Source of the DNA: Candidatus Zixiibacteriota bacterium
GTDB lineage: Bacteria; Zixibacteria; MSB-5A5; GN15; FEB-12
Reading direction: 5' to 3'
Length of the DNA: 46,074 nt
Assembly: GCA_024276275.1 (NCBI GenBank)
Contig: JAJRXM010000005.1
Coordinates: forward strand, 1-46,074
The position numbers were made by a program, and so were the translations under genes. Each line of letters begins with the position of its first letter. The stretch's first letter is position 1. Below the pieces are notes generated by a model that was not told the origin of the DNA, made no database searches, and was given only the letters and a program-made list of their open reading frames with translations. This document shows positions 14,272 through 41,253 of this stretch, one piece after another.

Positions 14272-17073
14272 TTATATTCTTTTTCGTTTACGAGTAACTT
14301 TTTTCTTAGCAAATAAACCGGATGTATATTTATCATATAACTCAAATAGAAATTTTATTCGGCTTGCTTCGTTTTTGAAAGGTTGGGAACGGTAACAAAG
14401 GTCAACTGCTTTATCAAGTTTTTGATGAGCTTTCACTAATGCTTGGGGCATACTGAGTGGGTCATAGAGATCTGCCAAACTGCTCTCTGGAAATTGTAAC
14501 CTGACATCCAAAACTTCTTGAGCAAATTTTTCAACAGCTTCTTTTTTCTTCTTTGTTGGTTTCTCAGCCCACGGATAGTTGTTGTATACAATATTTGCGG
14601 AATATTGATAATCACTTTTCATCCTACCACAGATATAAGAAGTCCAAGTCATATGCATAATAGAGCTTAGAATACCGAAATTATATAATGAAGCTTCTTG
14701 TATTATCAATGAACTTCCACTAGCTATTATATTTTGTTTTAGAATTCCAATAGGTATATACTTCCTATTAGAAGATGAAACTTTAGGAATAATTATATAG
14801 TCTGAAATAGGTTGACGAATTTCGCCAAATAAACTTGGGAAGTTAGCAAGATTATTAGTTGCCCCTCGATTACTTTCTAACCTAAAATCTTTAGTTCTTT
14901 TTATTCTAAGATGAATCTCTTTTGAGTCTTTTATTGAAATAGGATTTACATCTTTTAACCAAAGACACCAACGCTTAATGTTGTTTAGAAATTCTTTGCC
15001 ACCAGTATAAGGTCTTATAAATTTACTAGAAGTAGGTTCTTTCTTTAGAATGCTTTCCTTCTCTGAATCAGATAATATCAAATGTCCATTATCAATTGGC
15101 ATACTTCCATAATTCATTGTCGATACATTACAAATTGGAGTTGTCCTATTCATTATAATAGAGCTTAGCCCTTCAACTAAATAAGGGTTGATATTTTTAA
15201 CAATATGCTCATGTGGCTCATCTCCAGTATTTTCATATTCATATATTTTTTTATTAGCAACTTCAAAGTTTGAAAAACCGATAATTACAACATGCACTGA
15301 AGCGTTACCCCTTGCTTCATTATTCCATTTAAAAGTTCGGTGAGCAAAATGTATTTTTATGCTGTATTTATTAAATAATTCATTCCAGAGAATTCCTACT
15401 TGTTGTCCCTGTGAGATTGAGTTAGTAGATACAAATGATACTTTCGTATCTGATTTCAAATCTGTTTCTTCAGTATTATATTTTTTAAGATACTGAGCAG
15501 CTTTAATATACCAAGCGGTTACATAGTCAAGAATTCCAGCACCTTTCACATCTTTAAAAATTATTTTCATGTCGTACTTTTGTTCTTGGTTTTGTTCTTT
15601 TTTTCCAACAAAAGGGGGATTGCCTAATATGTAATCAAACTTTTTTATACTGCTTTCTGTTTCAGATGGAAGTGGTTCAGTTATTGTATCCCATTCAATT
15701 CGTAATGCGTTACCATGAACTATTTTTGCTGATTTTCTTAATGGAAGTCTAACAAAATATTCACCAAATTCTTGAGAAATTATCATATTCATTTGGTGGT
15801 CGATAAGCCAAAGAGCTACTTGTGCAATTTGAGCAGGAAATTCTTCATATTCAATACCATAAAAGCGATCAACATTGCATTGGACTAAAAGTCCTAAATC
15901 AGTAACCAATTGCTGTTTAATGTATAATTGTTTTAAAATTGATAGTTCAAGAAGTCGTAACTCTCTATATGTAATCACTAAGAAATTACCACATCCGCAA
16001 GCAGGGTCTAAAAATCGTAATGAAGCAATTTTTGTATGAAACTCAATTAATTTCTTTTTGTTGTTTTTGATTTTCTCAAACTCACCCCAAAGCTTATCAA
16101 GAAAAAGTGGTTCAATAAGTTTTAGTATATTTTTTTCACTCGTGTAATGTGCACCAAGATTTCTTCGTTCTTCTGGATTCATTACACTTTGAAACATTGA
16201 ACCAAAAATAGCAGGGGAGATATAACTCCAGTCAATATAACAACACTCTAACAATATAGACCGCATCTTGCTGTTGAATGAAGCTAGATGTAAGTTTTCA
16301 GCAAATAACTGACCGTTTACAAAAGGGAATGTAGTTAGTATTTCATCTAAAGTATTCTGTCTTTCTTTTTCAGAAGTATTAAGAACATCAAAGATTTGTT
16401 GTAAATATAAACCGAGGTCAGTGCCGTCTTCATTTGTTTTTAATTCTATATAATCTTGGAATGCTTGTTTTTCAAAAATACCAGTATCTTCAGCAAAAAG
16501 ACAAAATAAAAGCCGTACTAACAAAACTTCCAGTTCATGCCCTACATATCCAGCTTCTTTTAAAGCATCATGAAGTTTACCCATTTTTTCTGCGGCATGA
16601 ATATTTACAGGGTCTTCATCTTTAAAAACTTTCTTCTTGTACCCCGCAATAAAATCAAAAAGTTGGATATTTTTTACAAGCTCTGTTAGTTGAAAATCAG
16701 ATTGTTTGTTTTCTTCAAGGTCATAAAGCCTAAAATTTTCAAAGTCACAAACTATTATATATTTAGGTAATTCATGGTCTTTTAGTCCAGGCATATAATC
16801 TTTTGCTTGCTTAAATGCTTTATCAAGGTTTTTCCCCCGACTTTTCATTTCAACAACTAACATACCTTTCCAAATTAAATCTATAAACCCATCTCTTTCA
16901 TCTAACTTTTGAACTCTTTTTTCAAAAAGTCCAACTTTTCGTCGACTAACACCAAATACATCAAAAAAGCCTTCAAGAAAAGGTTGTGCTTCTGCTCTTT
17001 CGTTAGATGCATCTTCCCAATCTTTTGAAAATTTCGTAGCTCGCTCTTTTATTTCATTCCAGCTTAAAGCCAT
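14272..17073 (-). CDS. MmeI-like type IIL restriction-modification enzyme (endonuclease plus N6-adenine methyltransferase)
   Basis: One polypeptide predicted to cut and methylate the same site. The N-terminal nuclease domain has the PD-(D/E)XK-like pattern: Asp65 in GFIDLIW and Glu75-Met-Lys77 in VVEMKSRGK. An alpha-helical spacer follows (about 150-330). The gamma-type methyltransferase has motif I FLDPACGCGNFL (near residue 354) and motif IV GNPPFVGKKEQN (near 482), as in N6-adenine enzymes. The C-terminal third, with RPYTGGKEFLNN and WAEKPTKKKKEAVEKFAQ, matches the MmeI target-recognition and end domains. Length 933 is typical. No separate specificity or methyltransferase gene is adjacent, as expected for type IIL. 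It lies in a repeat-rich island, consistent with horizontal acquisition. The frame appears intact. Recognition site cannot be read from sequence by eye. Confidence 0.92.
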   Translation of the reverse strand: MALSWNEIKERATKFSKDWEDASNERAEAQPFLEGFFDVFGVSRRKVGLFEKRVQKLDERDGFIDLIWKGMLVVEMKSRGKNLDKAFKQAKDYMPGLKDHELPKYIIVCDFENFRLYDLEENKQSDFQLTELVKNIQLFDFIAGYKKKVFKDEDPVNIHAAEKMGKLHDALKEAGYVGHELEVLLVRLLFCLFAEDTGIFEKQAFQDYIELKTNEDGTDLGLYLQQIFDVLNTSEKERQNTLDEILTTFPFVNGQLFAENLHLASFNSKMRSILLECCYIDWSYISPAIFGSMFQSVMNPEERRNLGAHYTSEKNILKLIEPLFLDKLWGEFEKIKNNKKKLIEFHTKIASLRFLDPACGCGNFLVITYRELRLLELSILKQLYIKQQLVTDLGLLVQCNVDRFYGIEYEEFPAQIAQVALWLIDHQMNMIISQEFGEYFVRLPLRKSAKIVHGNALRIEWDTITEPLPSETESSIKKFDYILGNPPFVGKKEQNQEQKYDMKIIFKDVKGAGILDYVTAWYIKAAQYLKKYNTEETDLKSDTKVSFVSTNSISQGQQVGILWNELFNKYSIKIHFAHRTFKWNNEARGNASVHVVIIGFSNFEVANKKIYEYENTGDEPHEHIVKNINPYLVEGLSSIIMNRTTPICNVSTMNYGSMPIDNGHLILSDSEKESILKKEPTSSKFIRPYTGGKEFLNNIKRWCLWLKDVNPISIKDSKEIHLRIKRTKDFRLESNRGATNNLANFPSLFGEIRQPISDYIIIPKVSSSNRKYIPIGILKQNIIASGSSLIIQEASLYNFGILSSIMHMTWTSYICGRMKSDYQYSANIVYNNYPWAEKPTKKKKEAVEKFAQEVLDVRLQFPESSLADLYDPLSMPQALVKAHQKLDKAVDLCYRSQPFKNEASRIKFLFELYDKYTSGLFAKKKVTRKRKRI

Positions 17074-17377: not shown

Positions 17378-17411
17378 ACAAAAAAACCCGCATCCAAATG
17401 AATGCGGGTTT
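17378..17411 (-). terminator. Terminator of the histone-like gene
   Basis: AAACCCGCAT and ATGCGGGTTT form a perfect 10-base stem with an 8-base loop. On the minus strand it runs into a T tract, about 48 bases past the stop of the histone-like gene. Confidence 0.85.
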
Positions 17412-17458: not shown

Positions 17459-17890
17459 TTAGCGACGAGTTCTTTTTGTGCGACGTGCAGCAGTTGCTTT
17501 ACGTGTTGTTCTTTTTTTAGTTGTAGCTCTGTAAGAACGAGTTTTTGAAGTACCGCGACGTGCAGTAGCTTTACGTGCTGTAGGTCTGGTTGATTTACCA
17601 AAAGCTTTAAATGCGTTGGCTGGTCCTTTGTTACCTCTCCATACTGATGGAGATGCTTTTTTCAAAGATAAATCTACAGCTTTGTAACGTACTGAATATA
17701 CTGTACGACCTAATTGACGTGCACACCATGCAGTTTCAAACTTACGATAGTACTTACGCATGAAAGACATTTCAGCTCTTGTCCATGGACGAGAAACTTT
17801 GCGTGAAGTTGATTTACGTGTAGCAGCTCTACGTGTAGCCGGTTTACGTGTGGTTGAAGCGCGTCTTGTTTTAGTTTTACGAATAGCCAT
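17459..17890 (-). CDS. Histone-H1-like Arg/Lys-rich protein with central Myb/SANT-like DNA-binding domain
   Basis: A 143-residue, extremely basic protein. Residues 1-33 and about 98-143 are low-complexity tails of Arg, Lys, Thr, Ala and Ser (TRRAA, TRKAT repeats), like bacterial H1-like (Hc1/AlgP) nucleoid proteins. Between them, residues 34-90, is an ordered segment starting RPWTRAEMSFMRKYY and ending LGRTVYSVRYKAVDLSLKKA. Its pattern (Trp-Thr, helix, short loop, LGRT-x3-V-x2-KA) fits a Myb/SANT or related three-helix domain. Start ATG has AAGGAG 6 bases ahead, and a strong terminator follows, so it is a real, probably well-expressed single gene. I know of H1-like tails and of Myb-like domains separately in bacteria. 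The tail-domain-tail arrangement is inferred to bind and condense DNA with some sequence preference. Confidence 0.75.
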   Translation of the reverse strand: MAIRKTKTRRASTTRKPATRRAATRKSTSRKVSRPWTRAEMSFMRKYYRKFETAWCARQLGRTVYSVRYKAVDLSLKKASPSVWRGNKGPANAFKAFGKSTRPTARKATARRGTSKTRSYRATTKKRTTRKATAARRTKRTRR

Positions 17891-18401
17891 ATGTTACTCC
17901 TTGTTTGACAAGTTACATTATGCGGATAAGACTATGGCATAATCTTCCCGCAGTATTATTGAATTACTTACTCAAACATATCGACCGTATCATAAAATCC
18001 TTAACGCCAGTTGCTTAAGTTTTTGAAAAAGCTCGATAAAGTCTATGATGTGCAAAACTTGCACAGACAAAATAATCAACTTTAAATAGGTCAATTTAAC
18101 TTTATCTATCGGATTAATACCATAAATACACACTTCTGCTATACATAGTTAAACTACTGTCGTGATTTAAGTTACAGCGAAACAGCGAAATAGGCTAAGC
18201 GTAAAAATATCAATAAACATATTTTATAAAGCATAAGAGAGACCGGTCGTAAAATTCATACTTTATAGAGAAAGCTATATATTATTTTTTTTTGGAATTT
18301 TTGTTTTTTGTTGATAAAAATGCTCTAAACTCGCACATTTTTATCAGTATGACAAGAATGCGAACCTATTGTAAAACAAATTTAGTTTTCTTGGAGAGTT
18401 A
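17891..18401. other. Long spacer holding divergent promoters of the histone-like and AI-2E genes
   Basis: About 510 bases without a gene. A GTTACAGCGAAACAGCGAAA fragment at 18171-18195 resembles the AGCAAAATGGG repeat group. At 18312-18346 are perfect 11-base inverted arms TGATAAAAATG and CATTTTTATCA with a 13-base loop, in the leader of the AI-2E transporter gene, 55 bases before its ATG. No T-run follows. It could be a stem or an operator. Confidence 0.4.
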
Positions 18402-38053: not shown

Positions 38054-39112
38054 ATGAATAGACACAGTTTTTTTTATTGCAAAAAAGTACCGACAATACA
38101 ATGTATATTTCTTATTTTCCTGCTAATTTTTTTATTTTCTCAGGCAGTAATTAGTTCTGAACTTTATTTAACTGAGACAAAAAAAGAAATAATAAAAAAA
38201 ATACAGGCAAATATCTATCTCGATAATTTTAAAACAGCTCATACATATTCCGATTCACTTATTTTGTTTTATAATGATGACCCTATCGGATATCTTTTTA
38301 AAGCAGCTGTTTATTTAGGTGAAATGACAGATGCCGAGAACAATCTCTACCCGATACAATTTAAACAAATGATAGATACTTCAATAATATTAGGTGAAAA
38401 AAATATTCTGAGTGCTGATTCAAACAGAACAGCCTGGAATTATCTCTGTATAGGTCATGCCCGTGCATATCGTTCGTTATATGAATCGAGATTTGGCTCA
38501 ATGGGCTCAGCACTCAAAAACGGCTTTAAGGCAAAATCAGCATATCAACACGGGTTACAGTATGACAGTAGCTTGTATGACCTTTATGGCGGATTAGGAA
38601 TGTACCACTATTGGAAATCAGCAAAGGCCGGTTTTTTACGATGGATTGGAGTTTTTAAAGATGATAAACAAAAAGGAATTGATGAGCTGTATCTTACTAT
38701 AGATTCATCTGAGATTTCAGCCGATGCGGCGAACTCTTCTCTTATCTACATATATATCGACACAAAACAGTATGATTCCGCTACTGTCATTGCTGAAAAA
38801 ATGCAAAATAAGTATCCGTCGGGGAAAATTTTCTTGTGGGCTTTGGCAAAAATATATTTTGAAATTAAACAGTACGATAAGGCTATAAAAAATTATCAAC
38901 AGATATTAGATAGAGTTTATTTAGAGAAAAATTTTTATAACACAATCGAATGCGAATACCAAATTTACAAAGCATACAAAAACAGTAAAAATGAAACAAT
39001 GGCAAAAACAATTGCTCAACGATTTATGTTATATGTAAATAAAATTCCTATGGAGATACGAAAAAGACAAAGAGATAAGATTAAAATACTGCTAAAAGTT
39101 GCGACCGACTAA
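38054..39112 (+). CDS. Exported TPR-type repeat protein
   Basis: A 352-residue protein with an N-terminal hydrophobic segment (IQCIFLIFLLIFLFSQAVIS) acting as signal peptide or anchor. The rest is helical with TPR-like repeats (AHTYSDSLILFYNDDPIGYL, ALAKIYFEIKQYDKAIKNYQ). No specific family recognised. ATG at 38054 is chosen; a GTG at 38039 is also in frame, and neither has a Shine-Dalgarno. It lies 45 bases after the anti-sigma gene and converges with the five-domain regulator gene, overlapping its end by 4 bases. It could be an envelope adaptor controlled by the sigma factor, which is only inference from position. Confidence 0.7.
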   Translation: MNRHSFFYCKKVPTIQCIFLIFLLIFLFSQAVISSELYLTETKKEIIKKIQANIYLDNFKTAHTYSDSLILFYNDDPIGYLFKAAVYLGEMTDAENNLYPIQFKQMIDTSIILGEKNILSADSNRTAWNYLCIGHARAYRSLYESRFGSMGSALKNGFKAKSAYQHGLQYDSSLYDLYGGLGMYHYWKSAKAGFLRWIGVFKDDKQKGIDELYLTIDSSEISADAANSSLIYIYIDTKQYDSATVIAEKMQNKYPSGKIFLWALAKIYFEIKQYDKAIKNYQQILDRVYLEKNFYNTIECEYQIYKAYKNSKNETMAKTIAQRFMLYVNKIPMEIRKRQRDKIKILLKVATD

Positions 39113-41253
39113 GTCCCCTGATGTACCCGTTTGGTTTCATCAAGTAGTCTACAACCTTCCATCAAGATTGATTCATTCGGCAGTTCATTGTTTGGCGGCG
39201 GCAGTTCTGATATCTCTACTGATTCTATCTGCCAGCTTCCCTCTTTCCATCCGATAGCATGATACACAGCTTCTGCACCCTGTTTATCTTCAAAAGAAGC
39301 AAAAGTAATTTTTCCTTTATCAAAATAAATCAACAATACTGTTTCAATATTTTCATCCTTAAAAACAGTTAATTTTGCTGTTCTGGTACTACTTCCCATC
39401 ATTTGGATAAGGTCTATAATATCAATATCGGCTAAAGAGCCTGATGTACTTCCTGAAATCTCCGCTCTATCAATATCGTTGGATTCATTTTCAAGTTCTA
39501 TTTGTATCTTTCTCGTCTTAGCAAGCAAGAATTCTATAGAACCGTCAATAGTAATTATATCTTCTATACCAAATGTAAACAAAGCAGACAACAATGAGAT
39601 AGATTCTCCGGGGGCTAATATAAAAGTAGGAGTATCTTTAAAATTTAATCCGAGTGTCTCTAGTTTTGTTACATGGTTTTTTGTTTCATCAGCAGAACAA
39701 TCAAGATAAAGAACAATAAAATCCGGTTTACTCCGCTTATATAATTCAATCATTGATGTTGACGAATCAGTTGAAACTATTCTGAATTTCTCTATTTTCA
39801 GTCTGTCTTCCAACTTCGAGAACTTTTCTTCTTTGGCGTAATAAATCATTATTTGATTAAATTGAGATTCCTGAGTTTCTGACATAATCTCATCTTTAAT
39901 CATATCAATAAACGCATCGGCTACTTCTATTAAAAATAAATCACCGGATAATTCTTGTATTTTTGTTTTGATAGAATCAAATTTATCAAATGATAACCGT
40001 TCATGTACGTTGATATGCTGGCAGAACAAATCACAGATTGTAATAATATTCCCGCCGAGTACTTCTATAGGCAGACGTTTTGTATATTTTTTCTTTAAAT
40101 CTATATACATAGATTTTAACATTTCTATAATGACCGGGGAATAATTTAATGAACTCAAGAGCTTGATAGTCTTATTTATTTGAACACGTATTTCTTCTTT
40201 TTCGGCTCCAACAGATGAATGATAAAATTTAGAAACATCATGAATATAAGCAGCATTAATTATCGACAACCTGTCTTTATGTGGAAGATTTATTTTAGAA
40301 CATAGATTTTTTACATAATGACCGACTATAGAATTATGGTTATACTCCAGATTATCTTTTTCAACTAAAAGCGATGTAAAGAGATCTAAATTATTTATAA
40401 GTAAATCGGTTTCTTTTTCAATTTCTGATTCATTTAGAAATAATGAAGTTATCGAATCATAATAACGTACTTTTGTCATCGGAGATTTTTTTCTAATCCT
40501 GTCTATTAAATCTATATAGTCTCCGGCTACCGTATCAGAAATATATACTGAATGATACTCCTCTTCTTCAAGAGTTTGAATAGCATTATCGGCGGTATCT
40601 TTGGTAATGACTTTATAGCCGTCTTTTTCAAACAATTTGACTAACAAAGGTTTTGTTACCTGATCATCGGTTACCAGTAGTATAACATCTTTTGCCTCAA
40701 CTTGAACAGCAATACCGGCACTCTCTAGAACCATCTGTTTTTGTAGATACTCATTATATACTTCCGGTAGTTCCAGAAGATAATTTTCAAGATTTTCTAT
40801 ATCATAATCAAGGTAATGTTTGGCAATTGCAGTATTTAAAACTAAATCGGCTGAGAGAAACAATTCGATATTTTGATTATTGGTTACAAACTGTAACTCC
40901 ATTTTCAAATCATCATCGGTCGGGTCTTCACATGCAAATTTAATAATATCATTATTTACATCATAGGTAAACGGCAAAACTTTACGAGCTACAGCAAATT
41001 TAGCAGGAATCAGTTTCAGAACTATGTCGGGAATAGCAAGATTGGTTAAAACAACTGCTTTGCAATTAAGCTGTTTTGCCAATGCTTTTATAAGACCGAC
41101 TTCGTCAATAAACCGATTATAAAGAAGCTGCGAACCAAATTTACCACCCCGCTCTTTCTGGTCCTGGAGGGCAATTTTGACCTGTTCTTCAGTAATCAGC
41201 CCCTCATACATCAAAATTTGGTCTAAGCGTAGTTTATTATTACTCTGATTCAT
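39109..41253 (-). CDS. Five-domain regulator: MshEN - receiver-like - HD - receiver-like - DUF4388
   Basis: A 714-residue cytosolic protein. Residues about 8-150 match the MshEN / type II secretion ATPase N-terminal domain (RLDQILMYEGLITEEQVKIA, LIPAKFAVARKVLPF), known in some proteins to bind c-di-GMP. Residues 188-275 are receiver-like (ILLVTDDQVTKPLLVKLFEK; an Asp is kept in YISDTVAGDY). Residues 300-470 look like a worn HD/HDOD-type domain with one HD pair in NAAYIHDVSKF, but no GYP motif. Residues 485-600 are a second receiver-like fold without clear acidic pocket. The end (605-705) is DUF4388 (GSLADIDIIDLIQMMGSSTR). Start ATG has AGAAGGAA. No kinase or ATPase is attached. Domain order is my reading; only MshEN and DUF4388 are strong. 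Confidence 0.72.
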   Translation of the reverse strand: MNQSNNKLRLDQILMYEGLITEEQVKIALQDQKERGGKFGSQLLYNRFIDEVGLIKALAKQLNCKAVVLTNLAIPDIVLKLIPAKFAVARKVLPFTYDVNNDIIKFACEDPTDDDLKMELQFVTNNQNIELFLSADLVLNTAIAKHYLDYDIENLENYLLELPEVYNEYLQKQMVLESAGIAVQVEAKDVILLVTDDQVTKPLLVKLFEKDGYKVITKDTADNAIQTLEEEEYHSVYISDTVAGDYIDLIDRIRKKSPMTKVRYYDSITSLFLNESEIEKETDLLINNLDLFTSLLVEKDNLEYNHNSIVGHYVKNLCSKINLPHKDRLSIINAAYIHDVSKFYHSSVGAEKEEIRVQINKTIKLLSSLNYSPVIIEMLKSMYIDLKKKYTKRLPIEVLGGNIITICDLFCQHINVHERLSFDKFDSIKTKIQELSGDLFLIEVADAFIDMIKDEIMSETQESQFNQIMIYYAKEEKFSKLEDRLKIEKFRIVSTDSSTSMIELYKRSKPDFIVLYLDCSADETKNHVTKLETLGLNFKDTPTFILAPGESISLLSALFTFGIEDIITIDGSIEFLLAKTRKIQIELENESNDIDRAEISGSTSGSLADIDIIDLIQMMGSSTRTAKLTVFKDENIETVLLIYFDKGKITFASFEDKQGAEAVYHAIGWKEGSWQIESVEISELPPPNNELPNESILMEGCRLLDETKRVHQGT

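Follow-up and report, generated by a model that had tools for sequence, protein, structure and literature searches.

What does the short, very basic open reading frame in this stretch of DNA encode, and in which state of the cell might its product be made? The window, the whole stretch analysed here, comprises 46,074 nucleotides from a genome of Candidatus Zixiibacteriota (3.39 Mb, 95% complete) that holds one copy of the gene. A first-pass annotation placed a histone H1-like protein with a Myb/SANT-like core at 17459-17890; these coordinates are exact, but the annotation missed that the gene lies on the minus strand, the plus-strand reading of the same interval being interrupted by 9 stops. 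The answer that we favour, with a probability of roughly 0.6, is that the gene belongs to a Zixibacteria family of H1-like nucleoid proteins with a Myb/GcrA-type anchor, the Arg-tailed type of which is part of a sigma28 programme. The features of the gene and its product are as follows.

17459-17890, minus strand: open reading frame of the tailed protein, 143 amino acids plus stop (ORF list, orthologues)
17792-17890, minus strand: N-terminal basic tail, residues 1-33 (composition; pLDDT 53-58)
17621-17791, minus strand: core, residues 34-90, three predicted helices of Myb/GcrA type (structure prediction and comparison, profile matches)
17462-17620, minus strand: C-terminal basic tail, residues 91-143 (composition; low pLDDT)
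17522-17539, minus strand: conserved tail element RSYRAT, residues 118-123 (the loose pattern basic-x-aromatic-[RK]-A-[ST], in 26 of 33 orthologues)
17897-17902, minus strand: Shine-Dalgarno sequence AAGGAG (near-invariant context in relatives)
17384-17411, minus strand: intrinsic terminator (similar structures downstream in relatives)

The computed layout agrees with the earlier description of an ordered 57-residue segment between Arg/Lys/Thr/Ala tails. The segment RPWTRAEMSFMRKYY...LGRTVYSVRYKAVDLSL is found in the encoded protein, as a confidently predicted core that follows one basic, disordered tail and precedes another. Lysine and arginine make up 39% of the N-terminal tail, 40% of the C-terminal tail and 25% of the core; aspartate and glutamate are absent from both tails, and the whole protein has a pI of 12.0 and a net charge of +45. 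Modelled at full length, the protein has tails with pLDDT values near 55 that are devoid of secondary structure. With long disordered tails of Lys, Arg, Ala, Pro and Thr and a pI of about 12, the protein falls into the descriptive class of H1-like proteins. The short element of the C-terminal tail has the form basic-[ST]-aromatic-[RK]-A-[ST]. The strong Shine-Dalgarno sequence and the terminator noted previously are both present: AAGGAG stands six bases 5' of the ATG, and its context (AACAAGGAGT) and the downstream terminator are seen again in relatives.

The ORF is real, as judged by conservation far beyond chance: within the genus, orthologues share 72-88% identity, 50 of the phylum's 132 genomes have a close orthologue (E below 1e-29), and identity among the cores of orthologues is mostly 60-98%. 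All 50 of these genomes belong to families f1 and f2 (the f-numbers are anonymous labels for taxonomic families). The core profile (A2) has matches in 81 of the 132 genomes, and a broader profile (A7, E below 1e-6) finds at least one member in 83, distributed over f1-f5, f9 and f10; among good-quality genomes 50 of 78 match A7. The two most conserved peptides, a query that reaches close relatives only, were compared with 84,980 species genomes and gave 40 loci, labelled mostly Zixiibacteriota, GN15 or Zixibacteria and in some cases 'bacterium' or 'FCB group'. The one locus labelled Calditrichaeota (L053) belongs to genome G001, which GTDB places in the same genus as the window's genome. A search of the open-access literature, which leaves most subscription journals outside its scope, found no paper on this tailed family of Zixibacteria.

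The surroundings of the gene are also recurrent. An AI-2E-family transporter, always of one gene family, is present at 28 of 41 compared loci, in most cases next to the gene and divergent from it; superoxide dismutase, an epimerase and a carboxypeptidase-like protein also recur over the 41 loci. In the window a complete MmeI-type (Type IIL) restriction-modification protein (14272-17073, minus strand) lies between the tailed gene and the superoxide dismutase, and it is not found at that spot in related loci with the same dismutase neighbour. Farther away, 39109-41253 (minus strand) encodes a 714-amino-acid protein composed of MshEN, a response-regulator-like segment and a C-terminal DUF4388.

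To judge from sequence comparison, the tailed gene is chromosomal, single-copy and inherited vertically. This bears on its possible arrival as the DNA-binding protein of a phage or mobile element, acquired recently. Myb-like repeats are common in phages, and such an origin would fit a match to PHROG_323 ('D5-like'), the tandem repeats of a viral protein (L073) and structural matches in BFVD. Yet tblastn gave no match in 50,697 phage records, the viral matches amount to two distant contigs only, synteny is conserved and the distribution follows that of the host; we rejected phage or mobile origin as highly improbable. The PHROG_323 match was downgraded, since that model has matches in all 14 of 14 control genomes. 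The viral protein (L073:4647-5450, on a viral contig of 149 kb) is 267 amino acids long, with several tandem Myb/D5-like repeats, and is distant kin of the core.

The first-pass annotation had named two outcomes that would speak against it, a core with some other fold and absence of the gene from close relatives. The gene is conserved in those relatives, and residues 34-90 are predicted to form three helices of the Myb/GcrA type, with pLDDT above 90 over the helices. AlphaFold2 predicts three helices from 39 aligned cores as well, with pLDDT between 92 and 96. In the structure comparison that the annotation had proposed, the best VIA-align match was the Caulobacter GcrA DNA-binding domain (5yiu, Z 6.8, rmsd 1.5 A over 47 residues, 28% identity; 5yiv, Z 6.4, rmsd 1.0 A over 43 residues), values of Z that, being below 8, are modest and common among small helical domains; next came Tc3 transposase and a number of Myb domains, that of c-Myb among them. 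Foldseek gave no match reaching E 0.001. A family-wide profile compared with the PDB matched GcrA chains at E 7e-4 and the uncharacterised protein 2lvs at E 3.8e-5. Pfam models for Myb and GcrA match weakly, the best GcrA match having E 0.017, in 2 of 34 cores. The window protein itself has no match to the GcrA family (PF07750), and it scores 7.3 bits (E 6.4) against HC2 (PF07382), for which the curated cut-off is 40 bits. Membership by sequence in HC2, GcrA or any NCBIfam family was rejected, there being no match. Thus the modelled core superposes on the GcrA DNA-binding domain and on Myb repeats, and the Myb/GcrA three-helix fold class is supported by these predictions; close kinship is not.

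The core is much more conserved than the tails. Its invariant residues include W36, Y48, W55, R62, Y65, R68, Y69, K70, A71 and W84, and the conservation extends to helix 3 (TVYSVRYKA). Such a pattern, with the GcrA DNA-binding domain as the best structural match, would suit a dedicated GcrA-like transcription regulator, whose core recognises one particular DNA motif, with a possible role in the cell cycle or the sigma28 regulon, while the tails merely raise affinity. However, the protein has nothing like the C-terminal sigma-interacting domain of GcrA, and no other domain for contact with sigma factor or polymerase; the remainder of the protein, half of its length, is disordered basic tail, and the Lys-tailed paralogue described below retains the layout though its core has diverged. 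We regard a regulator of this kind as unlikely, although conservation of the core would seem stronger than a non-specific binder needs and to that extent counts against the H1-like reading.

For an H1-like nucleoid protein, we infer DNA binding and condensation of the following form. The third helix of the core would fix the protein to duplex DNA, and the two disordered tails would neutralise charge and bridge neighbouring duplexes, the mode of action proposed for tails in eukaryotic H1 and in chlamydial Hc2. Arg/Lys tails bind any polyanion, and the H1-like protein AlgP works in polyphosphate granule spacing (PMC9239181); the protein could then act mainly on RNA, on ribosomes or on polyphosphate granules and bind DNA only secondarily. 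That the core is predicted to have a DNA-binding fold argues against this, as does the lack of any recognisable polyphosphate gene in the conserved neighbourhood, as read at the compared loci, and we consider the proposal improbable.

The H1-like family is represented twice in the window's genome, which also encodes two full-length copies of HU. The second member (L002; contig C45:858-1307, 149 amino acids) has the layout of the window protein, with a diverged core and tails rich in Lys, Ala and Pro (22 Arg, 43 Lys). Many genomes hold both a Lys/Ala/Pro-tailed and an Arg-tailed version, and the plan of tail, core and tail is kept across many genomes of the phylum. Since the Arg and Lys types occur side by side in one genome, the difference between their tails is not due to genome GC content. 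Arg-rich-tailed members are found in f1, f2, f3, f5, f9 and f10, those of f5, f9 and f10 being shorter, with a mainly N-terminal tail; Lys-type members are found in f1-f5 and f9.

The region upstream of the window gene contains two further features.

17978-18004, minus strand: putative sigma28 (FliA/WhiG)-type promoter element, TTAAGGAT-N11-GTCGATAT (conservation in relatives)
17921-17952, minus strand: 5'-leader RNA hairpin with a GCCAT loop and a covarying stem (covariation; covariance-model search)

The sigma28 consensus is TAAAGTTT-n11-GCCGATAA (PMC2859248). The window element agrees with it in 11 of 16 letters, which alone is not significant, and the strict pattern has 2 matches over the window's whole genome, the number that its reversed control also gives. 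Counting matches within a single genome thus tells nothing, and the case for sigma28 rests on conservation. Most f1 and f2 members have TTAAGTAT-N11-GACGATnA about 105-120 nt 5' of the ATG, in which AAG, A and CGA are invariant (28 sequences). In f5, f9 and f10 the upstream regions otherwise look dissimilar and the match to sigma28 is closer than in f1 and f2: 12 of 12 genes score 12-15 of 16 letters with a spacer of exactly 11, as in TAAAGTGT-N11-GCCGATAA, TAAAGCTT-N11-GCCGAATA and TAAAGCTT-N11-GCCGAAAG. Two f3 members have CAAAG(T/G)TT-N11-GCCGATA(C/A) 250-300 nt upstream, and a third has no element within the 300 nt read. Arg-tailed members with the element thus come from five to six taxonomic families. 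The same element is found in front of most of the phylum's flagellin genes, at a distance of about 200-245 nt from the start. Of the 27 upstream regions that score at least 12 letters of 16, out of 452 at these loci, 20 belong to the tailed family itself; for other genes at these loci the figure is 7 of about 410. At f1 and f2 loci a conserved TTAAGC..nTTG stands just upstream of the -35-like element (about 18005-18020 in the window, minus strand), possibly an activator site.

A sigma28 (FliA/WhiG) gene is present in the window's genome (262.9 bits against a cut-off of 189.6) and above cut-off in 123 of the 132 phylum genomes, and flagellin in 40 of 41 relatives. Sigma28 is not sufficient for the tailed gene, since it is also found in families lacking the gene. 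An element at a fixed upstream place, together with a sigma28 gene, was found for f1, f2, f3, f5, f9 and f10, and this conservation suggests that the Arg type is part of the sigma28 programme. No single origin of the sigma28-linked members emerges from the core tree: 4 changes are needed, at least 2 of them forced, and the backbone is unresolved. Among Lys-type genes most score 11 or lower and three reach 12-14; many show TTGACA, which is probably a housekeeping promoter. We infer dependence on sigma28 in vivo for the Arg-tailed version, expression of which from such a promoter would tie packaging to the late flagellar genes and a motile or differentiated state; the Lys/Ala/Pro-tailed version would be made mostly without a sigma28-type element, often with TTGACA.

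The leader hairpin lies between the sigma28-type promoter and the Shine-Dalgarno sequence. In an alignment of 24 sequences 9 of its 10 pairs are changed on both sides, and the covariation score is 0.493 against 0.289 (sd 0.027) for shuffled and 0.11-0.16 for slid alignments. A covariance model of the hairpin applied to 41 genomes (E below 0.01) has matches in 16, in each case ahead of the type-A gene, and none elsewhere; some of these loci, such as that of G015, were outside the set from which the model was built. Rfam has nothing near gathering score, its weak matches falling in the terminator region and not in the leader. As far as these alignments tell, the hairpin is a cis element of the tailed gene, and it probably tunes translation or mRNA stability, although this role is a guess. 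The f9 Arg-type loci L200-L203 show, by eye, an inverted repeat resembling TCGAATA...TATTCGA about 60-90 nt 5' of the start codon, perhaps a counterpart of the f1 hairpin.

A bolder proposal combines these elements into a sigma28-controlled chromatin switch, in which the Arg-tailed H1-like protein and its leader riboregulator would be produced in a particular state of the cell, either motile or differentiated, and re-package the nucleoid, as an independent counterpart of chlamydial sigma28-hctB with a folded anchor; we put this forward tentatively and hold it to be somewhat doubtful. The first-pass annotation, for its part, was borne out in its layout, in its fold and in the conservation of the gene; what escaped it, and is added here, is a Lys-tailed paralogue, a promoter of sigma28 type and a leader hairpin that covaries.

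Hc1, Hc2 and AlgP are known chiefly for their basic tails. In Zixibacteria, a phylum known from metagenomes, the family has a folded anchor flanked by two such tails, which is the three-part organisation of eukaryotic linker histones. Eukaryotic linker histone H1 shares the order of tail, globular domain and tail, but its globular domain is a winged helix whereas that predicted here is of Myb/GcrA type, so that the likeness is one of plan only. The DNA-binding domain of GcrA resembles the core in its three-helix fold and as a distant profile match, but GcrA runs on into another domain and has no basic tails. PHROG_323 and the viral L073 protein share a related repeat, W..E...L.......A..L.R...SV..K...L.L, which L073 carries several times in tandem without basic tails, while the Zixibacteria protein combines one repeat with tails. 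The Lys-type paralogue is like AlgP in the Lys/Ala/Pro composition of its H1-like tails; the tail of AlgP, however, is C-terminal and made of KPAA repeats (PMC9239181), and those of Zixibacteria flank the core. Chlamydial Hc2 (HctB) is likewise small, very basic and tail-rich, and its gene is transcribed by sigma28, which in ChIP-seq of C. trachomatis binds only hctB and tsp (PMC12282069); here the promoter is putative, the HC2 family is unmatched and the protein has a folded core. The sigma28 parallel between Zixibacteria and Chlamydia is probably convergent, because the protein falls outside the HC2 family. If confirmed, a packaging protein under the flagellar sigma factor would tie chromosome packaging to cell state in bacteria beyond Chlamydia, and it poses a testable general question, whether control of H1-like packaging proteins by a motility sigma factor is a recurring link between packaging and cell state.
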